Shown piece by piece: positions 4,063 through 63,610 of a stretch of DNA of 64,000 nt. The DNA is taken from contig NZ_CP054021.1 in assembly GCF_005862305.2 (NCBI RefSeq), positions 1,674,001 through 1,738,000 on the forward strand, in the 5' to 3' direction. Position numbers and translations under genes: made by a program. The notes under the pieces are model-generated. The model was not told where the DNA came from. It made no database searches and saw only the letters and a list, made by a program, of their open reading frames with translations. Each line of letters begins with the position of its first letter. Position 1 is the first letter of the stretch. Origin of the DNA: Rhizobium indicum (lineage in GTDB: Bacteria; Pseudomonadota; Alphaproteobacteria; Rhizobiales; Rhizobiaceae).

Positions 4063-5883
4063 TCAGCCTGCCCGGCGCATCGGTTCAGCCTGGCGGTGCT
4101 GCGGTGCGCCGACTCGGAAGCCGCGGATGAGGTCGATCAGCTCGTCGGTATCGGTGGCCAGCGTCTCGGCGGATGCCGTGGTCTCTTCGGCCATGGCGGC
4201 GTTCTGCTGGGTGGCGGCGTCGAGCTGGTTCATCGACGAGGAGATCGAGCGCAGCGTCGTATCCTGTTCGGAAGCGCTGTGGGCGATCTTGGCGACGATC
4301 TCGTTGGCAGCCTTGATCTGGTCGGAGATGCGCTTCAGCGCCTCGCCTGCCTCGCCGACCAGACGGACGCCGTGATCCACCTGGCTGGAGGAGCGGGCGA
4401 TCTGGTCCTTGATCTCCTTGGCCGCAGCGGCGGAACGCTGGGCAAGTTCGCGCACTTCCTGGGCGACGACCGCAAAACCCTTGCCGCTTTCACCGGCACG
4501 AGCTGCCTCGACACCGGCATTCAGCGCCAGAAGGTTGGTCTGAAAGGCGATCTCGTCGATGACGCCGATGATCTTGGTGATCTCCGAGGATGACTTCTCG
4601 ATGCCGCTCATCGCCTCGATCGCCTGGGTGACGATCGCATCGCTATGGGTGGCTTCAGTGCTGACCGAGTGGACGCGCTTGCTGGCTTCATGGGCGCCAT
4701 CGGCGGTCTGGCGGACAGCGACAGTGAGCTCATCGAGGGCGGCCGAAGTTTCTTCGAGGCTGGCGGCCTGGCGCTCGGTGCGCTGCGACAGTTCGTTGGA
4801 AGCGCGGCGGATCTCTTCCTTGCTGGTGCCGATATCGGTGCCCTTGGCGCTGACCTTGGCCATGGCGGCTTCGAGATGCGACAGCGCATCGTTGAAGTTG
4901 TCGCGAAGGGCGGCATACTTCTGGCCGAGATCGGCGCAGCGAACGGTAAGATCGCCGCGGGCGATCATCTCCAGCGCCTGGCCGATGGTCGTCACCACGC
5001 GAGCCTGCAGCGTTGCTTCGTCCTGCTGCTGGCGCAGATTGTTTTCGCGCTCGCTTTCCAGCGCCAGTTGCTGGGCCGCCTCGCGATCCGACATCGCATG
5101 GCGCTCCCTGATCTTTTCCTGCAGCGACTGCGTCGCCTTGGCCATCATGCCGACTTCATTGTTCATGCCGGTATGCGGGATGGCGATCGAAACGTCCTCT
5201 TCGGCCACCGACTGCAGTGCATTGTGGATGTCCTTCAGCGGATGGGAGATGCCGCGGATGAAGAAGACGGCGGCGGCAATGCCGCAGACGAAGACGATCA
5301 GCGAGGCGGTCAGCGCCTTCCAGATCGTCGCATTGACCTTCTGCTGCAGATCGTCGAGATAAACGCCGGTGCCGACGACGATCTTCCAGGGCTCGAAGGC
5401 CTTGGAATAACCGCCCTTGAGGAAGACCTGGTCTTCCGGCTGACCCGGCTTGGTCCAATAGTAGAAAGTGCGGCCGCCGCCGGCCTTGCCGTTGTCGACC
5501 AGCGCCTGGCTGAATTTCGCGCCGGTCTTGTCGACCTGGCCGCTCATGTCCTTGCCGAGATTGACCGGGCTCGGATGGAAGAGCTGGATGACGTTGTAGT
5601 CGAAGCCGAAGAGATAACCGGATGGCTGAAAGGAGACGCGCTTCAGGATTTCGAAGGCCTCGGCCTGGGCGGCCTCATGGGTCATCTGACCGGCCTTCTC
5701 GCGCTCATGGAAGGTGTTGAGGACGGAGATGCCCGATTCGACCTGCGTGCGCAGCATGTCGAAACGCTCGTCGTAGATCGCCTGTTCGGAGGTGCGGATT
5801 TCGAAATAAGTAGCCACTGCAAAAGCAGCCATTAGGACGCCGATCAGCGCAAACAATTGATGCGCAATCTTGAGCTTTTTCAT
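4063..5883 (-). CDS. Methyl-accepting chemotaxis protein, sCache_2 sensor (paralogue)
   Basis: A 606-residue chemoreceptor with the same plan as its neighbour: anchor helix, periplasmic sCache_2 domain (SFQPSGYLFGFDYN, FEPWKIVVGTGVY), second helix near residue 185-210, HAMP and signalling hairpin. The sensor domain is clearly diverged from the neighbour, with different ligand-facing segments, but the HAMP-to-C-terminus part differs at only a handful of positions in about 370. That suggests recent duplication or gene conversion of the signalling half while the sensors stayed different. Each gene has its own Shine-Dalgarno (GAGGC) and the pair is separated by a terminator, so they are probably transcribed separately. 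Confidence 0.95.
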   Translation of the reverse strand: MKKLKIAHQLFALIGVLMAAFAVATYFEIRTSEQAIYDERFDMLRTQVESGISVLNTFHEREKAGQMTHEAAQAEAFEILKRVSFQPSGYLFGFDYNVIQLFHPSPVNLGKDMSGQVDKTGAKFSQALVDNGKAGGGRTFYYWTKPGQPEDQVFLKGGYSKAFEPWKIVVGTGVYLDDLQQKVNATIWKALTASLIVFVCGIAAAVFFIRGISHPLKDIHNALQSVAEEDVSIAIPHTGMNNEVGMMAKATQSLQEKIRERHAMSDREAAQQLALESERENNLRQQQDEATLQARVVTTIGQALEMIARGDLTVRCADLGQKYAALRDNFNDALSHLEAAMAKVSAKGTDIGTSKEEIRRASNELSQRTERQAASLEETSAALDELTVAVRQTADGAHEASKRVHSVSTEATHSDAIVTQAIEAMSGIEKSSSEITKIIGVIDEIAFQTNLLALNAGVEAARAGESGKGFAVVAQEVRELAQRSAAAAKEIKDQIARSSSQVDHGVRLVGEAGEALKRISDQIKAANEIVAKIAHSASEQDTTLRSISSSMNQLDAATQQNAAMAEETTASAETLATDTDELIDLIRGFRVGAPQHRQAEPMRRAG

Positions 5884-6266: not shown

Positions 6267-6374
6267 GCAATTCCCGGCAAAACCGCTGCGCGCTTTGCCT
6301 GGAAGTTGCTTGATCTCTTTGTCTTTACGCAATTCCGCACGCAAAACCGCTAACGCACTTTTGCTGGAAGTTGC
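6267..6374. repeat. Two hairpin repeats of the constant-loop family (GCAATTCC class)
   Basis: Two copies, 6267-6309 and 6329-6374. Each has an outer stem of the GCAATTCC / GGAAGTTGC type, an inner stem of GCAAAA / TTTGC type and a CCGCTGCGCGC- or CCGCTAACGCAC-like loop. They are degenerate members of the class seen cleanly at 26328-26371. The second copy ends 2 nt before the TAG stop of the neighbouring minus-strand gene. Confidence 0.75.
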
Positions 6375-6928: not shown

Positions 6929-8206
6929 TCACGCCGAGCCGGTTTCGCGCTCGATCGCCCGCCAGCCGATGTCGCGCCGGCAGAAGCCGTTTTCCCATCT
7001 CACCCTGTCAAGCAGCGTGTAGGCGCGGTCCTTGGCCTCGGCGACCGTGCCGCCGGACGCGGTAACATTCAGCACGCGGCCGCCGGTCGAAACCAATGTG
7101 CCATCCCTCAGACCCGTGCCGGCATGAAACACCTTCTCGCCCTCGCCTGCATCCGGGAGGGAAAGGATCGGCGTGTTCTTCTCGTAGGCGCCGGGATACC
7201 CCTTCGAGGCCATGACCACCGTCAGTGCCGGATCGTCGTTCCATTCGGCCTTGACCTGATCGAGCGTGCCGTTGGCGGTGGCGAGCAGCAGTGGCAGGAG
7301 ATCGCTCTTCAACCGCATCATCATCACCTGGCATTCGGGGTCGCCGAAGCGGACATTGTATTCGATGAGCTCCGGCCCCTTCCTGGTGATCATCAGCCCG
7401 GCGAAAAAGACGCCGGAGAAGGGATGACCGCTCTCTGCCATGCCGCGCATCGTCGGCTCGATGATCTCCTTCATCGTCCGCTCGACCATCTCGGCGGTCA
7501 TCACAGGCGCCGGCGAATAGGCGCCCATGCCACCGGTATTGACGCCGGTATCGCCCTCTCCCACTCGCTTATGATCCTGGGCGGTTGCGAGCGGCAGCGC
7601 ATGTTTGCCATCGCAGAGGCAGAAGAAGCTCGCCTCCTCGCCATCGAGATAGGCCTCGACGACGACTTCGGCGCCGGCAGCGCCAAAGGCGCCCTCGAAG
7701 CAGTCGTCGACCGCGGCCAAAGCTTCATCGAGCGTCATTGCAACCGTCACGCCCTTGCCGGCGGCAAGACCATCGGCCTTGACGACGATCGGCACGCCCT
7801 CGGCGCGGATATAGGCTTTCGCCTTCGGTCCATTGTTGAAGCGCTGGTAGGTGCCTGTCGGAATATCGTAGCGGGCGCAGATATCCTTGGTGAAGCCTTT
7901 GGAACCCTCGAGCTGGGCTGCGGCAGCGGAAGGACCGAAGACCGAAAGGCCATCGGCGCGCAGCCGGTCGGCAAGGCCGGCAACCAGCGGCGCCTCCGGG
8001 CCGACGACGACGAAATCGATCGCCTTGTCCTTGCAGAAGGCCGCGACCGCTTCGTGATCCTCGATGTCAACCGGCACGAGGACGGCGTGTTCGGCAATGC
8101 CGGGATTGCCGGGTGCGGCGTAGAATTCCGTCATCAACGGCGATTGCGCCAGCTTCCAGGCGAGCGCATGCTCGCGTCCGCCCGATCCGATCAACAGAAC
8201 CTTCAT
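6929..8206 (-). CDS. purD: Phosphoribosylamine--glycine ligase
   Basis: A 425-residue ATP-grasp enzyme that joins 5-phosphoribosylamine and glycine to make GAR in purine biosynthesis. It opens with [20 protein letters not shown] and has the ATP-grasp signatures [12 protein letters not shown] (about residue 142-153), [10 protein letters not shown] and RFGDPECQ. Length is usual for the family. The start follows AAAGGG at good spacing. It is a single gene with its own promoter region. Confidence 0.98.
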
Positions 8207-22209: not shown

Positions 22210-22257
22210 CGGACCATGCCTGACGAGGCCCCGGCCGGCGTGCGATCAAAGAAATAG

Positions 22258-22303
22258 AGCATGATGTCGTGCGAAAACCGCTCACACTTTTCGGTATCAT
22301 GCT
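22258..22303. repeat. Constant-loop hairpin repeat (AGCATGAT class) containing the ispE start codon
   Basis: Outer stem AGCATGAT / ATCATGCT, inner stem CGAAAA / TTTTCG, loop CCGCTCACAC, and an asymmetric bulge (GTCGTG against GT). A second copy is at 57600-57645. The ATG codons of ispE (22261, 22264) lie inside the left arm, and there is an in-frame TAG at 22255. Confidence 0.85.
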
Positions 22304-23166
22304 CCAGCGTTTCCGAGGAAGCTCGCGCGAAAATCAACCTGGCCCTGCATGTGACGGGCCAGCGGCCGGATGGCTATCATCTGCTCGATATGCTGGTGAC
22401 CTTCGCAGATCACGGCGACCGGCTGGACTTCATGCGGTCGCCGGCCGACGCATTCACCCTGTCGGGCCGTTTCGGCGAGGTGCTTGCCGGCGACGGCGGC
22501 ACCAACCTGGTGCTGAAGGCCCGCGACCTCCTGCGCGAGGCAATCGGTCCCCTCGCCTTTCCCGTCCGTATCCATCTCGAAAAGAACCTGCCGATCGCCT
22601 CCGGCATCGGCGGCGGCTCGGCCGATGCAGCCGCGACGCTGCGCGGGCTGATGCGGCTCTGGGGCACGACATTATCAGCGGAGACGCTTGCCACGCTGGC
22701 GCTGAAGCTCGGCGCCGACGTGCCGATGTGCCTTGAGAGCCGGCCGCTGATTGCCCGCGGCATCGGCGAAAAGATCGAACCCGTGCCGGAGCTGCCGGCC
22801 TTTGCCATGGTGCTTGCCAATCCGCTAAAGGGCGTCTCGACGCCAGAAGTTTTCCGCCGGCTGGCGACAAAGAACAATCCGGTCCTGAGCCTGGCACCGT
22901 CTCAGACTGCCGACTGGCTCGCCGCGATTGCTGCTGCCCGCAACGACCTGGAGCCGCCGGCGCGCGAACTCGTGCCCGAGATTTCGGAGATCTCGGCGAT
23001 GCTGCAAGCTCACGGCGCCCTGTTGACCCGCATGTCCGGTTCCGGCGCCACCTGTTTCGGCATCTTTGAGAGCATGACTGCTGCCGAACATGCAGCGGCA
23101 GCTCTTCACGACGAGCGCCCTGGCTGGTATTTCCAGGCGGCGAAAACGGTTTCGGGAGGCGCATGA
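22261..23166 (+). CDS. ispE: 4-diphosphocytidyl-2-C-methyl-D-erythritol kinase
   Basis: A 301-residue GHMP kinase of the MEP isoprenoid pathway. It phosphorylates CDP-ME at the 2-hydroxyl. The N-terminal EARAKINLALHVTGQRPDGYH and the ATP loop PIASGIGGGSADAAATLRGL (about residue 116-135) are diagnostic, with MSGSGATCFGIF near residue 258. The first 16-18 residues are encoded by a repeat hairpin and do not look like the family. There is a stop just upstream and no later ATG/GTG/TTG before the conserved region, so the repeat really supplies the start. It overlaps moaB by 4 bp. Confidence 0.93.
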   Translation: MMSCENRSHFSVSCSSVSEEARAKINLALHVTGQRPDGYHLLDMLVTFADHGDRLDFMRSPADAFTLSGRFGEVLAGDGGTNLVLKARDLLREAIGPLAFPVRIHLEKNLPIASGIGGGSADAAATLRGLMRLWGTTLSAETLATLALKLGADVPMCLESRPLIARGIGEKIEPVPELPAFAMVLANPLKGVSTPEVFRRLATKNNPVLSLAPSQTADWLAAIAAARNDLEPPARELVPEISEISAMLQAHGALLTRMSGSGATCFGIFESMTAAEHAAAALHDERPGWYFQAAKTVSGGA

Positions 23167-23717
23167 TGGCAGGTCTGGACGAAAAGCGGCCCTTCATCGC
23201 GGTCGGCATTGCGGTTCTGACGATCTCGGATACACGCACGCCGGAGACGGACAAGTCAGGCGACACGCTGGCGGCGCGGATTACGGAGGCGGGGCATAGG
23301 CTGGTCGACCGGGGGATCGTGCCCGATGATCGCGAAAAGATTGCCGCGCGGGTGAAGGCCTGGACTGAGAACCAAGACATAGACGTCGTCATCACCACCG
23401 GCGGCACCGGCTTTACCGGCCGCGATGTGACGCCAGAGGCGCTGGAACCTTTGTTCGAAAAGCGGATGGACGGCTTTTCCGCCATCTTCCACCGGATCTC
23501 CTACGAGAAGATCGGCACGGCGACGATCCAGTCGCGCGCCACGGCAGGTGTTGCCAACGCCACCTTCATCTTCGTGCTGCCGGGTTCGCCCGGCGCCTGC
23601 CGGGATGCCTGGGACGGCATTCTGAAAGGACAGCTCGACTATCGCAGCGTGCCCTGCAATTTCGTCGAGATCATGCCGCGTCTGGACGAGCACCTGAAAC
23701 GCGGCGCGACGAAGTAG
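23163..23717 (+). CDS. moaB: Molybdenum cofactor biosynthesis protein B
   Basis: A 184-residue MoaB/Mog-fold protein. Core motifs are VLTISDTRTPETDKSGDTLA near residue 18-37, TTGGTGFTGRDVTPEAL near 79-95, and FVLPGSPGACRDAWDGIL near 139-156. MoaB-type proteins bind or adenylylate molybdopterin. The ATG overlaps the ispE stop (ATGA) and follows GGAGG, so the two genes are translationally coupled although their pathways are unrelated. Confidence 0.93.
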   Translation: MMAGLDEKRPFIAVGIAVLTISDTRTPETDKSGDTLAARITEAGHRLVDRGIVPDDREKIAARVKAWTENQDIDVVITTGGTGFTGRDVTPEALEPLFEKRMDGFSAIFHRISYEKIGTATIQSRATAGVANATFIFVLPGSPGACRDAWDGILKGQLDYRSVPCNFVEIMPRLDEHLKRGATK

Positions 23718-24260: not shown

Positions 24261-24400
24261 GCCCCTCATCCGGCTGCCGCCACCTTCTCCCCGTAAACGG
24301 GGCGAAGGGACATGCCGCACCGGCTTCCCTCAATCTCGACGCTGCGTTTGGCACGTCCCCTCTCCCCGTTTTTTACGGGGAGAGGGTTAGGGTGAGGGGC
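24261..24400. repeat. RIME-like double-palindrome repeat (family A), inverted copy
   Basis: About 140 bp with ends GCCCCTCATCCGGCTGCCG and GGTTAGGGTGAGGGGC, and internal palindromes CTTCTCCCCGT-aa-ACGGGGCGAAG and CTCTCCCCGT-TTTT-ACGGGGAGAG. It is the reverse complement of the element at 1194-1332. The rest of the gap from 24056 to 24441 holds no gene I can see. Confidence 0.82.
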
Positions 24401-24441
24401 TGCCATTGGCGCGAAGGCAGGATGACGAAGAGCGGAATTGC

Positions 24442-26270: not shown

Positions 26271-26371
26271 GCAACTCCGGATGGAAACTGCTTCGCACTT
26301 TCCCTGGAATTACCTCTAACCTTTTACGCAATTCCGGACGGAAAACCGCTGCACACTTTTCCTGGAATTGC
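26271..26371. repeat. Tandem pair of constant-loop hairpin repeats (GCAATTCC class)
   Basis: The clean copy is 26328-26371: outer stem GCAATTCC / GGAATTGC, bulge GGAC against T, inner stem GGAAAA / TTTTCC, loop CCGCTGCACAC. A degenerate copy with a partly broken stem lies at 26271-26313. They follow the radical SAM gene stop by 15 bp. Confidence 0.85.
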
Positions 26372-27278: not shown

Positions 27279-27361
27279 AAGGGGCGCGCGAGGAACGGAG
27301 AGGTCGCGGCATGTCCTCTTCTCCCTTCGGGGAGAAGGTGCCGGCAGGCGGATGAGGGGCC
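27279..27361. repeat. Partial RIME-like repeat (family A)
   Basis: It matches the GAGGAACGGAGAGGTCGCGG to GGCGGATGAGGGG half of the 1194-1332 element, with the palindrome CTTCTCCC-ttc-GGGGAGAAG. The other half is missing. Confidence 0.7.
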
Positions 27362-27474
27362 GCACGGCACATCCGCCCCATTATCCTATCCGCCGCGCCA
27401 CAGCTACCTGAACCTAGTCGAGAGCGCGGTCGAAGCTCGTATGGGCGTTGCTGGGGAAAGACCGGCTTCGCCGG

Positions 27475-27560
27475 CCCCCTCATCCGCCCTACGGGCACCT
27501 TCTCCCCGCTGGGGAGAAGAGGGAATCGAGAGGGCGCGGCATGTCCCTTCGCCCTGTTTA
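27475..27560. repeat. Partial RIME-like repeat (family A), opposite orientation
   Basis: It begins with CCCCCTCATCCGCC, has the palindrome CTTCTCCCCGC / GGGGAGAAG and then a GAGAGGGCGCGGCATGTCCC edge. Together with the copy at 27279-27361 it fills most of the 505-bp gap between rnhB and the F0 operon, where I see no gene. Confidence 0.7.
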
Positions 27561-32019: not shown

Positions 32020-32138
32020 AAACCCCTCCCCACAAGGGGGAGGGACTTAGCGCGGCACCGCCTCGCTTATTCTGAAATGTCGAAAAGCTGACAAACGGCG
32101 CAACTGGTTAAGCCCCTCCCCCTTGTGGGGAGGGGTTT
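32020..32138. repeat. 30-bp inverted repeat pair (CCCCTCCCC palindromes)
   Basis: Arms 32020-32049 and 32109-32138 are reverse complements with a single mismatch, separated by 59 bp. Each arm also holds a smaller palindrome (CCCCTCCCC-acaa-GGGGGAGGG). An extra CCCCTCCC half-unit lies upstream near 31990-32019. It sits between the kup stop and the divergent upstream region of the hydrolase gene. Confidence 0.8.
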
Positions 32139-35401: not shown

Positions 35402-35563
35402 ATGCATGCCGTTGTCCCGGAACCGCGGCACACTTCCGGGCGACATGCATTTTGTTTTATGCATGTCGTTATCCCGGAACCGCAGCACACTTCCGGGCGA
35501 CATGCATTTTGTTTTATGCATGCCTTTATCCCGGAACCGCGCACACTTCCGGGCGACATGCAT
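35402..35563. repeat. Three tandem constant-loop hairpins with a 57-bp period
   Basis: Copies at 35402-35450, 35459-35507 and 35516-35563, joined by TTTGTTTT spacers. Each folds with outer stem ATGCATGTCG / CGACATGCAT, one-sided bulge (TTGT or TTAT), inner stem CCCGGAA / TTCCGGG and loop CCGCGGCACAC, CCGCAGCACAC or CCGCGCACAC. The last copy shares one base with the TAA stop of mrp. Confidence 0.9.
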
Positions 35564-36732: not shown

Positions 36733-37264
36733 TCCACCCTCACTGCTGCTTGCAGATCACAAATAGTGGAGACGGAAGCCTTCGCCAAACAAAATCAACG
36801 GGAGGAAAATCCGGCGCGCCAAAAGAGCGCCGGGGAGACTTGGCAATCCGTTGCGGCCATCAAGTCCGCCGGGCTTTCGCCCTGATGGCCGCAACGGTCT
36901 CCCCGAGAACCGGCGCAATCCGGGGCGAACTAGAGCAAGCCGAGCAAAAGGCCAGCGAAAAGTGAACTGGGAAGACTAAATCGCGAACAGCCGGGAAAGA
37001 AGCGGTGCCAAAACGCAACAACCGCCGCCGACACCGAAGAGCCGGGAGAAAGCGGCATCGGCGTCGGGCAGCGGTGTGTCGGCCGCGCCATTTCCTGGCG
37101 CTGGTCTCAAAGTCCCCTCTGGACCTCTCGCACAAGAGATGCAGAAAGCGTGCCAGATGGAAAATTAGGAAAAACAGCGCAAAAGCGCTCGGGACAGGCT
37201 TCCAACGGGAAGGACTTGCCTATGCGCTGGGCGGCTTCGAAAGCAGTCGGTTGTTTTTTGCAAC
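36733..37264. other. Intergenic region with one long hairpin (36849-36896)
   Basis: This stretch of 532 bp has no gene I can support. It holds the mrp promoter side and, at 36849-36896, a perfect 14-bp stem CGTTGCGGCCATCA / TGATGGCCGCAACG with a 20-nt loop that contains a second small stem GGGC-TTTC-GCCC. No T tract follows on either strand. Confidence 0.6.
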
Positions 37265-44646: not shown

Positions 44647-44784
44647 CCAAAACCCGAGCTTTCCTCCGGAGCCATGCAGAAGAATGACCGGCAGGTCTTA
44701 ACAATTCGATAGTAAATCAGCGGCATAGGCGCTTGAACCTCCCCAAAATCTAGGGAGTTGACGGGTATTTTGGCGTCCACACAC

Positions 44785-44803
44785 TTTTGCGCGACATGCT
44801 TCA
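44785..44803. repeat. Half-copy of the constant-loop hairpin repeat supplying a stop codon
   Basis: CACTTTTGCGCGACATGCTT followed by CAG matches the right arm and edge of the copies at 53029-53077 and 57702-57750. The left arm is lost. The TTCA edge (variant of TTTA) contains the TGA stop of the PAS-receiver gene. Confidence 0.7.
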
Positions 44804-46522: not shown

Positions 46523-46705
46523 GCTATTGCGTCCCACATCTGTTCGATTTCGCAGCTTCCGGAGGTATGTGATTAGAAATGCCATTTTTATGTTAAAACC
46601 GGCTTAACATTACCTATTCCCAATTTTGGGGGAGCCCCGGATCACGTTTCCGGAAAGCCTGTCGAAACCCCTTCCCTCCGGCCCGCGAATCCCCGAAAAT
46701 AGCCC

Positions 46706-48508: not shown

Positions 48509-48547
48509 AAAAGCTGGAAAAGCAAGCCTTGCGGGAGTATGGCAGAC

Positions 48548-48646
48548 TAAAGCGTGTCGCGATCTTTCAGATCCGCTTACCACGCTTTAGGTGTTTGGTG
48601 TCCGCATGTCGTGATCGCAAAACCGCGGCACACTTTTGCGCGACAT
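48548..48646. repeat. Composite two-hairpin repeat (GCATGTCG class)
   Basis: The first hairpin has arms TAAAGCGTG (48548-48556) and CACGCTTTA (48581-48589). The second, 48604-48646, is GCATGTCG / CGACAT, bulge TGATC against G, GCAAAA / TTTTGC, loop CCGCGGCACAC. Same composite element as at 52972-53077, with compensating changes in the first stem. Confidence 0.88.
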
Positions 48647-48667
48647 AGACTGCAGGGAACGGAGCGC

Positions 48668-52919: not shown

Positions 52920-52971
52920 TCGCGTTGCCTGTACAGATGTGCGCAGGACGAGACGTTTTGCAGCAGCCCGC

Positions 52972-53077
52972 TAAAGCGCGTCGCGATCTTTCAGATTCGC
53001 TTGTCGCGCTTTAGGTCTTTGTTTTTACGCATGTCGTTGTCGCAAAACCGCTGCACACTTTTGCGCGACATGCTTTA
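52972..53077. repeat. Composite two-hairpin repeat abutting lpxK
   Basis: The first hairpin has arms TAAAGCGCG (52972-52980) and CGCGCTTTA (53005-53013). The second, 53029-53073, is GCATGTCG / CGACATGC, bulge TTGTC against G, GCAAAA / TTTTGC, loop CCGCTGCACAC. The following TTTA holds the TAA stop of lpxK. Just inside lpxK, 53079-53107 resembles a half-copy of the GCAATTCC class. Confidence 0.9.
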
Positions 53078-54148: not shown

Positions 54149-54225
54149 CTTGCCGTCCCGCTCCCCTGCCCCTCGACTGGCCGGATTGAGAAGCCAAAAT
54201 CGATGAAAATGCAAGCCCTTACGGA

Positions 54226-57567: not shown

Positions 57568-57599
57568 CAGATCAATCCATCTCTCAATTGAATAGTCAG

Positions 57600-57750
57600 A
57601 GCATGATGTCGCCCGAAAACCGCTCACACTTTTCGGCATCATGCTCTCAAGCGCGTCGCGATCTTTCAGATTCGCGACGCGCTTTAGGTCTTTGATTTTC
57701 CGCATGTCGTTATCGCAAAACCGCTGCACACTTTTGCGCGACATGCTTTA
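57600..57750. repeat. Cluster of three repeat hairpins of two classes between tldE and the cysQ-like gene
   Basis: 57600-57645: AGCATGAT / ATCATGCT, inner CGAAAA / TTTTCG, loop CCGCTCACAC. 57649-57684: AAGCGCGTCGCG / CGCGACGCGCTT perfect 12-bp stem. 57702-57746: GCATGTCG / CGACATGC, bulge TTATC against G, GCAAAA / TTTTGC, loop CCGCTGCACAC. The TTTA edge supplies the stop codon of tldE (57748-57750). Confidence 0.92.
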
Positions 57751-59094
57751 GCGCCCGGCAAGCGTCATGCCCTCGATGGCAAACGTGGGGGCCGCAACGC
57801 CGAATTTGCGGTCGATGTCGTTTGCCAGCGTCAGGCGCATGAACATCTCCTTGAGGTTCGAGGCGATCGTCACCTCGGAGACCGGGAAGGTGAGCTCCCC
57901 GTTCTCGATCCAGAAGCCGGTGGCGCCGCGGCTGTATTCGCCGGTGATCATGTTGACGCCGTGGCCGATCAATTCGGTCACATAAAAACCGTTGCCGACG
58001 CTGCGGATCAGATCCTCCGGCGAGATGTCGCCGGGTTCCAGCGCAAGGTTGGTGGAAGAAGGCGAAACGGCGGTGCCGCCACGCACGCCGCGGCCGTTGG
58101 TCTCCAGACCCAACTCGCGCGCGGTCGAAGTCGAGAGGAACCAGTGCTTCAAGATACCATCCTCGATCATCACCAGGCGCTCGCCGGACACGCCCTCGCC
58201 GTCGAAGGGCCGCGAGGAAGGGCCACGCACGATCAGCGGATCGTCGGTGATCGACAGGCCCGACTTCAATACCTGCTGACCCATCTTGTCGCGCAGGAAG
58301 CTGGACTTGCGGGCGACGGAAGCACCATTGATCGCACCGGCGATATGGCCGACAAAGCCGCGGGCGACACGCGGGTCGAAGATGACAGTGATGTCCTTGC
58401 CGGTCGGCACCTGGCGCGGATTGACGCGCTTGATTACCCGTTCGCCGGCGCGACGGCCGATTTCAGCGGGATCGTCGAGCTCGGCGTAATAGAGACGGCT
58501 GTCATAATCATAATCGCGCTCCATGCCGGTGCCTTCGCCCGCGATGACGCTGACGGAATGACCGAAACGCGACGCCATGTAACTGCCTTCGAACCCGTGC
58601 GAGGTGGCAAGAACGAGGCCGCCCATGCCTGCGGAAGCGCCGGCGCCGGAGGAATTGGTGACACCCTTGACCGCAAGCGCGGCTGCTTCAGCAGCAAGAC
58701 CCGCCTCGCGCAGCATCTCGGAGGAGACCTCGGTGGTATCGAGCAATTGCAGGTCGGGATAGGATCTCGAAAGGCTCGCCTCATCCGCCAGGCAGGCGAA
58801 GGGGTCTTCCGGGGAAACCTTGGCCATGGCGACGGCGCGTTCGGCCAGCGCCTGAAGATCGAAGCCCGGATTGGCCGAAACGCTGGCGACACGCTTGCCG
58901 ATGAAGACACGCAGGGAAAAATCGTCGCTTTCGGAGGATTCCGTGCCCTCGACCTTGCCGAGGCGGACGCTCACCGATTGCGAGCGCGACCGGACGACGA
59001 CGGCGTCGGCGGCATCGGCCCCTGCCTTCCTTGCCAGATCGATCAATTGACTTGCGCGGGAAAGAAGTGTCGAGGAATCAATTTCAGAGGACAT
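57748..59094 (-). CDS. tldE: TldE/PmbA family metallopeptidase subunit
   Basis: A 448-residue protein of the TldD/PmbA family. Typical segments are RSQSVSVRLGKVEGTESSES, LRVFIGKRVASVSAN, VIFDPRVARGFVGHIAGAIN near residue 230 and ELIGHGVNMITGEYSRGATG near 390. It lacks the TldD HExxxH zinc motif, as expected for the TldE/PmbA partner. With TldD it processes peptides. ATG 59094 follows AGGAAAGG; the frame to 59139 has no support. Confidence 0.92.
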   Translation of the reverse strand: MSSEIDSSTLLSRASQLIDLARKAGADAADAVVVRSRSQSVSVRLGKVEGTESSESDDFSLRVFIGKRVASVSANPGFDLQALAERAVAMAKVSPEDPFACLADEASLSRSYPDLQLLDTTEVSSEMLREAGLAAEAAALAVKGVTNSSGAGASAGMGGLVLATSHGFEGSYMASRFGHSVSVIAGEGTGMERDYDYDSRLYYAELDDPAEIGRRAGERVIKRVNPRQVPTGKDITVIFDPRVARGFVGHIAGAINGASVARKSSFLRDKMGQQVLKSGLSITDDPLIVRGPSSRPFDGEGVSGERLVMIEDGILKHWFLSTSTARELGLETNGRGVRGGTAVSPSSTNLALEPGDISPEDLIRSVGNGFYVTELIGHGVNMITGEYSRGATGFWIENGELTFPVSEVTIASNLKEMFMRLTLANDIDRKFGVAAPTFAIEGMTLAGR

Positions 59095-63456: not shown

Positions 63457-63474
63457 AGCAAAGAAACAGCTAGA

Positions 63475-63610
63475 GCATGTCGCGCAAAAGTGTGCGGCGG
63501 TTTTGCGATAACGACATGCGCAAAAACAAAGCCTAAAGCGCGAAGAGCGAAGAGCGAAGAGCGAAGAGCGAAGAGCGAAGAGCGAATCTGAAAGATCGCG
63601 ACGCGATTTA
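63475..63610. repeat. Composite two-hairpin repeat with inserted heptamer array
   Basis: 63475-63519: GCATGTCG / CGACATGC, bulge C against GATAA, GCAAAA / TTTTGC, loop complement GTGTGCGGCGG. The second hairpin region (TAAAGCG ... ATCGCGACGCGATTTA) is interrupted by six and two-thirds copies of GCGAAGA (63540-63586). The TTTA edge at 63607-63610 supplies the stop of the patatin-like gene. Confidence 0.88.
63540..63586. repeat. Heptanucleotide tandem repeat (GCGAAGA)x6.7
   Basis: Six perfect GCGAAGA units and a partial GCGAA. It lies between the convergent genes ending at 63456 and 63608, in non-coding DNA. Copy number could vary between strains. Confidence 0.95.

Follow-up and report, generated by a model that had tools for sequence, protein, structure and literature searches.

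A family of bulged hairpins in the genome of Rhizobium indicum most probably represents the conserved half of non-autonomous mobile DNA repeats of the RIME, CIR and Bru-RS kind, which insert at TA dinucleotides and in which the apical part of the hairpin is held constant; we put the probability of this explanation as a whole at about 0.8. The elements are real, mobile and structurally conserved, yet of a known kind. New, as far as we have searched, are the apical hairpin that joins unrelated stems, a TA-duplicated empty site and an enrichment of element ends in stop codons. The hairpins were noticed in a stretch of 64,000 nucleotides, here called the window, that lies between 1.674 and 1.738 Mb on a contig of 5.03 Mb; the genome to which it belongs (the home genome) measures 7.53 Mb.

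Organisation of the conserved hairpin

An earlier note on the window had described 13 hairpins, assigned by their stems to four classes, as variants of one plan. Every one of these was verified in sequence and position, that at 63475 lying on the minus strand (Table 1). The shared plan comprises an outer stem of ∼8–10 bp, a 4-nt bulge in the 5′ arm that is mostly T-N-N-T, a 7-bp inner stem that is mostly CC-N-AAAA, and a 10–12-nt loop of the form CCG..CAC. The bulge is indeed one-sided and constant in position, as had been claimed, but its size is not the 4–6 nt against 0–2 nt then proposed; alignment of classes 1, 2 and 4 by pairing gives 4 nt in the 5′ arm against 0 in the 3′ arm, and in class 3 the bulge is GGAC against T. 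Among 50 copies from the home genome the left bulge is 4 nt long in 46 and the right bulge is absent from 42, as counted by a scanner with a mild bias towards 4 and 0. Several copies in the window are imperfect, namely those at 6267, 6329 and 26271 (class 3), 35402 and 35516 (class 4) and 22258 (class 1), together with that at 48604, in which the 3′ arm is truncated early; one partial copy (Table 1, last line) had not been listed before. Folded as DNA, the hairpins of classes 1, 2 and 4 (n = 3) and the 106-bp unit described below give z-scores of −3.5 to −7.4, and a class 3 copy gives −4.3 with a predicted fold that departs from the others.

Table 1. Conserved hairpins and bipartite elements in the window (positions are those of the window).
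Feature	Position	Strand	Details	Detected by
Class 1 conserved hairpin	57598–57647	+	11-bp outer stem; TCGC bulge; inner stem CCGAAAA/TTTTCGG; loop CCGCTCACAC	Hairpin scan, covariance model, folding
Complete RIME1-like bipartite element, ∼106 bp	57646–57751	+	Palindrome I, linker and conserved hairpin	
Palindrome I of the 57646–57751 element	57649–57684	+	GANTC site at 57669	
Class 2 conserved hairpin of the 57646–57751 element	57702–57746	+		
RIME1-like bipartite element	52971–53077	+	Conserved hairpin at 53029–53073	
RIME1-like element	48547–48648	+	3′ end decayed; conserved hairpin at 48604–48647	
RIME1-like element, reverse	63471–63610	−	Conserved hairpin at 63475–63519; short tandem expansion in palindrome I	
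Three class 4 conserved hairpins	35402–35563	+	Tandem array (35402, 35459, 35516), period 57	
Two class 3 conserved hairpins	26271–26371	+	At 26271 and 26328, period 57	
Class 1 conserved hairpin	22257–22304	+		
Two degenerate class 3 hairpins	6267–6374	+		
Partial copy	44779–44802	+	Loop end and 3′ arm alone	

Searched for by itself with up to two mismatches, the loop pattern gives 21 matches in this GC-rich window, where chance alone would give 28.6, and so is not enriched. The whole hairpin clearly exceeds its control: a strict family scan finds 50 copies in 1.264 Mb of home sequence and 0 in a single second-order Markov control of equal size. The sequence scanned consisted of the window, 59 chromosomal tiles and one tile from contig C2 (20 kb each, partly overlapping), of which 20 were evenly spaced and 40 were picked for holding matches. 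A scan of the window for bulged hairpins of any sequence lists 14, and nine of these belong to the family.

A covariance model built from nine copies of classes 1, 2 and 4, with class 3 excluded, matches the class 3 copy at 26328 with 34 bits (E = 7.6e-7), in support of the claim that the classes form a single family; the other three class 3 copies score at E = 0.39–4.9 under the same model. At gathering scores, no Rfam family matches in the window. Below threshold there is a match to mir-2545, an animal microRNA family, at 32024–32134 on the minus strand (E = 0.0015), which is almost surely an artefact of a GC-rich palindrome.

The hairpin as half of a bipartite element

Overlooked in the earlier note was that the hairpin is usually one half of a repeated unit. 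Most hairpins form the second half of an element of ∼100–110 bp, made up of a class-specific palindrome (palindrome I), an A/T-rich linker of ∼12–16 nt and the conserved hairpin, with a 3′ end that is commonly CTAG or TTTAG. A palindrome with an arm of at least 9 lies upstream of 33 of the 50 copies, compared with 5 of 50 random 75-mers, and 17 copies have no clear palindrome I. The unit at 57646–57751 folds into two hairpins and recurs in the genus as a single block of ∼106 bp; it matches 508 plasmid records, of which 367 come from Rhizobium, 121 from Sinorhizobium, 11 from Ensifer, one each from Agrobacterium and Bradyrhizobium and 7 from others, a count that covers plasmids only and is not normalised. 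Palindrome I carries a GANTC site in 17 of the 33 copies, in 12 of them within 5 nt of its centre, and lacks it in 16; the control figure is 475 of 4897 intergenic windows.

Other repeats were seen in the same sequences. Within palindrome I of the reverse element, 63530–63590 is a tandem expansion of 7-nt units (GCGAAGA). Relatives of the home genome carry a second bipartite family of ∼110 bp, with a palindrome I around AGCGCCGCGCG, a linker near CACTTTGAAT and a palindrome II that has variable stems and a near-constant loop, TCGATTCCGA, containing GATTC (a GANTC site). It is found opposite home 36751–36763, where 11 nt in the home genome correspond to 119 nt in G577, G007 and G023, and also at 6930–6942 (G023), at 46613–46616 (G005) and in loci L377–L391; it is possibly a parallel superfamily. 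Another dispersed palindromic repeat, CCCCTCACCCTAACCCTCTCCCCG.. / ..GGGGAGAAGGTG..GGATGAGGGG, occurs in the window at 1190–1340, 24300–24430 and 27280–27545 and is often polymorphic between the home genome and its relatives. Lastly, 2030–2329 and 4111–4410 are 300-nt copies, 95% identical, within neighbouring large open reading frames, and are probably duplicated genes.

Covariation of the stems

The claim that the stems co-vary around a near-constant loop is supported by the nine copies of classes 1, 2 and 4. In their alignment 96.3% of cells are paired and 16 cells are changed on both sides, and the covariation score is reached by none of 500 shuffles. Six pairs show changes on both sides, a number equalled in 21 of 500 shuffles, and further pair types are no more frequent than in shuffles (416 of 500).

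The covariation persists outside the window when the inner hairpin alone is held fixed. With only the 24-nt core (inner stem and loop) fixed, 68 of 89 copies have at least seven contiguous outer pairs, a count that lets some bulge be present, compared with 22, 23 and 25 of 89 in partner-shuffled controls, where the figure is high because the outer stem GCATGATC is common. The expected register has 69% of its cells paired. Six shifted registers were compared with it: four have 13–27% of cells paired, and the remaining two, at 65–66%, contain the same pairs moved outward. When the register is fixed at a 4-nt bulge, 38 copies form at least six pairs; they have 21 distinct outer arms, nine of which differ from one another at three or more of eight positions, and T occupies bulge position 1 in 36 and position 4 in 35 of these 38. 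Fewer than six outer pairs are found in 49 of 87 distinct copies in this register, some of them because the bulge is 5 nt long or the stem has decayed. Common ancestry inflates the covariation, GCATGATC being present in 39 of 90 rows. The bulge, inner stem and loop are thus kept, and the outer stem turns over and is mostly still paired.

Copy number and distribution

The home genome contains at least 150 matches to the model (the best 150 of 2576 candidates scored), and a pattern search finds 122 matches, compared with 0 in a reversed control. Copies are present in 31 of 41 genomes, the home genome included, and their number per genome within the genus ranges from 0 to at least 150. Hairpins with other stems occur in seven genomes from other families of the order, which were chosen because they had matches; some form arrays with a period of 55–60. 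The exact 24-nt core of the CCGG type was found in at least 119 stretches, 80 of which were listed, and the organism names among these listed matches place them in Hyphomicrobiales, Rhodobacterales, Caulobacterales, Sphingomonadales and others. A model of 99 diverse copies matches 24 of 289 Alphaproteobacteria genomes at E = 1e-4 when filtering is strict and 21 candidates are scored in each genome; on this measure the hairpin is patchy in the class. In a sample of the phylum, 24 of 200 genomes match, all 24 of them within Alphaproteobacteria.

An excess of plus-strand copies was noted on contig C1 (85 against 36 among 121 scored), and the genome-wide pattern search gave 91 plus and 31 minus. 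A replication-strand cause of the excess on C1 was rejected, as there is no flip between the two replication arms; the polarity of the KOPS motif GGGNAGGG indicates a terminus at about 0.3 Mb and an origin at about 2.8 Mb on this contig.

Presence, absence and TA duplication

Comparisons with close relatives show that the presence of the elements differs between them, which supports the earlier suggestion that the hairpins are mobile. Home sequence amounting to 264 kb was compared with G589, and ∼186 kb of it aligned. At home 1760751–1760854 a 102-bp class 3 element is present and G589 is empty; the home sequence reads CGGC-TA-(100 bp)-TA-AGCC against CGGC-TA-AGCC in G589, with the 26 nt flanking each side identical. 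This element has short GAGC..GCTC terminal inverted repeats, and a 244-codon open frame shared by the two genomes stops at this point, with TAG in the home genome and TAA in G589. Two further sites, at both of which called genes end, are consistent with TA duplication: the element at 63471–63610 compared with G589, and a RIME1 copy in G023 at home position 23715.

Several sites are polymorphic. The 63471–63610 element is absent from G589, G023 and G005, and both the 48547–48648 element and the 22257–22304 hairpin are absent from G007, G023 and G005; a 61-bp array unit at 1657628 is present in the home genome and absent from G589. No TA duplication is seen at the presence/absence sites 57588–57752, 48547, 22237 and 54225 (in G023), and at 54225 our simple caller calls no gene. 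Over the 50 home-genome copies, TA is found at 37 of the 3′ ends and 29 of the 5′ ends; it is lacking near the 3′ end in 13, and in 21 the 5′ end is unrecognisable.

The site at 57588–57752 was followed through 40 matched genomes of the genus (home included), from which 30 loci were examined. The hairpin is accompanied by the RIME1 unit at two loci (home and G011) and stands without it at three (G007, G005 and G012); the RIME1 unit is inverted at two (G015 and G022), a remnant is left at one (G019), and the family element is absent at 21, including G589, where the flanks are ∼95% identical. In G577 (L346) the hairpin is chimeric, with a class 1 5′ arm, a class 2 3′ arm and a partly unpaired stem, and apparently arose by recombination through the shared core.

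Stop codons and gene context

Element ends fall in stop codons far more often than other TA sites do. Using 1336 genes from our own simple caller, the terminal TA lies in a called stop codon at 19 of 66 testable ends (Fisher p = 1.9e-8), with 13 of 37 at 3′ ends (p = 2.6e-7) and 6 of 29 at 5′ ends (p = 0.0096); in the background, 488 of 7515 TA sites outside coding sequence, stops included, lie in TAA or TAG stops. At the 57702–57746 hairpin, for example, the element end TTTAG supplies the TAA stop of a minus-strand called gene that ends at 57748. In NCBI-annotated plasmids a CDS ends exactly at the terminal TA in 7 of 10 elements, in L423 at both ends, and the remaining three have a stop within the element, a TGA shortly upstream and none, respectively; eight of these ten were chosen for CDS overlap, so that they illustrate the arrangement and give no rate. 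The enrichment may reflect selective tolerance instead of targeting.

Of the 50 copies, 28 lie between tandem genes, 12 between divergent and 9 between convergent genes, and one at a tile edge; none is within a called gene (49 of 50 classified, overlaps of up to 25 nt allowed). In often providing the stop of an overlapped gene the element resembles BOX, the organisation of which is unrelated to that of the bipartite hairpin element. BOX of Streptococcus pneumoniae supplies the stop codon in 36 of 58 overlapping CDSs (PMC3049150).

Relationship to known repeats

RIME1 and RIME2, Rhizobium-specific intergenic mosaic elements, were reportedly described by Osteras in 1995. RIME1 measures ∼108 bp, contains two large palindromes and is intergenic; it occurs in Rhizobium and Sinorhizobium, with a copy between chvI and chvG in S. 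meliloti and NGR234, and is not known from A. tumefaciens or B. japonicum. The 106-bp unit at 57646–57751 has about this size and two hairpins, and class 2 is very probably RIME1; the kind of element is therefore already known. In contrast to RIME1 and RIME2, the same conserved hairpin is here carried on other palindromes too, and in other orders. Among 50 ChvG loci (48 from other genera, the home locus and one from the same genus) there is one clear family hairpin, in L179; at 936–982 of that locus it occupies the gap that separates the ChvG frame from a frame of 255 codons, a position like that reported for RIME between chvI and chvG.

The architecture is also that reported for CIR and probably that of Bru-RS. 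As described in a review (PMC2229807), CcrM-associated intergenic repeats (CIR) are ∼110 bp long, with two long inverted repeats and a linker, TA at their termini and GANTC in one loop; their target duplication is marked with a question mark and their mobility is said to need more evidence. The elements described here similarly have two inverted-repeat arms and a linker (33 of 50 with the upstream palindrome) and TA termini, but differ in that GANTC is present in palindrome I of 17 of 33 only and that target duplication, of TA, is seen at one perfect site. Bru-RS1 and Bru-RS2 are palindromic repeats of 103–106 bp (PMC10800456), and the window contains a sub-threshold match to Rfam RF02600 (BASRCI27, Brucella sRNA CI27), which we infer to be a Bru-RS copy. 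That match, at 57612–57758 on the minus strand (E = 1.4e-7, 49.1 bits, below the cut-off of 59.8), covers the class 2 hairpin, linker and palindrome I. RUP, ERIC and Correia/NEMIS are small non-autonomous MITEs that insert at TA and have TA at both ends (PMC2229807). The short GAGC..GCTC ends and the TA duplication (one perfect site, two consistent) recall this type, whereas those MITEs fold end to end and the present element is formed by two separate hairpins and a linker. The earlier remark that no description comes to mind that unites the classes is partly wrong: class 2 fits RIME1, and CIR has the same architecture (PMC2229807). Six strings of the conserved hairpin have no match in the literature text searched.

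Alternative explanations

That the hairpins act as RNA, as transcribed stem-loops bound by an RNA-binding protein, as mRNA stabilisers or as small RNAs, is highly unlikely in our judgement. Such a role would fit the RF02600 match, the many copies that start immediately past a stop codon and a report that REP and other repeat regions are transcribed in S. meliloti (PMC2873474). The 28 copies between tandem genes, however, are split into 15 sense and 13 antisense, which argues against a strand-specific RNA role, and the 12 copies between divergent genes and the occurrence of the RIME1 unit in both orientations at 57588–57752 point the same way; given the RF02600 match, some ‘sRNAs’ may simply be transcribed copies of repeats like these. 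The covariation, for its part, might arise without selection by quasipalindrome correction, in which one arm is rewritten from the other by template switching, with the loop constant through recent descent. This process concerns the covariation alone and is compatible with a mobile element. It could give the pairing, and neighbouring array units are often near identical; arm-to-arm copying ought, however, to remove the one-sided bulge, and the lasting bulge of 4 nt, sometimes 5, is not easily explained by it, nor does it sit well with an exact core kept across several orders with differing outer stems, in a set chosen for that core. We consider it rather unlikely as the source of the covariation.

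The RAYT-type system that had been proposed found no support, and we regard it as very improbable that these are REPs mobilised by a REP-associated tyrosine transposase of the Y1 type. The elements do resemble the GTAG/CGTC REPs, and BIMEs, as short bulged palindromes that are intergenic, present in high copy and arranged in arrays with a regular period of 55–60 bp. The home genome, however, contains no match to PF01797 (RAYT/Y1), and the presence of this family does not track hairpin richness: 6 of the 22 genomes rich in hairpins have it, as do 4 of the 16 that are poor in them (Fisher p = 1.0). No GTAG or CGTC tag is seen in the copies inspected by eye, the bulge is one-sided, and TA is duplicated at 1760751–1760854, an outcome that Y1 enzymes would not be expected to give. 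The loop of 10–12 nt is also large compared with the 4–5 nt given for CGTC families (PMC3733652). CGTC-tagged REPs were rejected as a match on loop and stem, and Br-REP1 and Br-REP2 of Bradyrhizobium because their sequences differ (PMC5082802). With no strand preference and no Y1/RAYT in the home genome, we read the repeats as non-autonomous DNA elements. Beyond PF01797, the search of the home genome for a parental transposase covered PF13358 (IS630), with two matches, and PF13340 (IS427-type), with three, two of them above the cut-off; neither was accepted as a resident partner, the inverted repeats at these loci being unlike the element ends. At L417 1258–1926 a class 3 element lies at the TAG with which the open frame upstream closes, and its hairpin is where a transposase fragment of IS630 type starts, an arrangement that recalls IS711 in Bru-RS, although the fragment merely adjoins the element. 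An origin of the elements as remnants of an insertion sequence like IS427/IS711 (IS711 belongs to the IS427 group), the hairpin being incidental, is unlikely, as the home genome has just three matches to PF13340 and the inverted repeats listed at those loci do not correspond to the element ends. Brucella IS711 duplicates TA at YTAR and has a reported preference for Bru-RS palindromes (PMC2266754), which favours the debris view; by analogy, an IS427-type enzyme would be the best candidate mobiliser.

Proposed mode of movement and implications

For non-autonomous mobile repeats, we envisage insertion of the complete element at a TA dinucleotide, which is duplicated in the process. Element ends start with A or G, so that insertion into TAA or TAG would restore the stop as TA+A or TA+G and keep gene length, and a good share of the surviving insertions would be of this stop-codon type. 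Once inserted, the hairpins would multiply or be lost as tandem units of ∼55–61 bp, with recombination between copies. In scattered lineages of Alphaproteobacteria the apical part has stayed near-constant as the outer stem changed yet remained paired, and the likeliest reason for this constancy is the action of a protein on the DNA hairpin, extruded or single-stranded, whose bulge and loop it would read. From these observations we infer that a protein recognises the hairpin and that a transposase targeting TA moves the elements in trans; none with matching ends was found in the home genome among the matches to PF01797, PF13358 and PF13340.

A more specific reading, which we put forward tentatively as possible, is that the apical hairpin is a recognition module, of an age that would account for its occurrence in several alphaproteobacterial orders, for a DNA-hairpin-processing protein that mobilises many RIME, CIR and Bru-RS elements of unrelated appearance without a Y1 enzyme and preferentially into stop codons. 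Outer stems would then be free to diversify, and the element ends would repair the stop codons that they enter. TA duplication together with landing in stop codons offers a testable account of both movement and host tolerance. The elements may also put a hairpin directly behind many stop codons, and effects of REP hairpins on translation and on the decay of mRNA have been reported (cited in PMC5082802). RIME, CIR and Bru-RS carry separate names, and a hairpin module shared in several orders would unite them as a superfamily.
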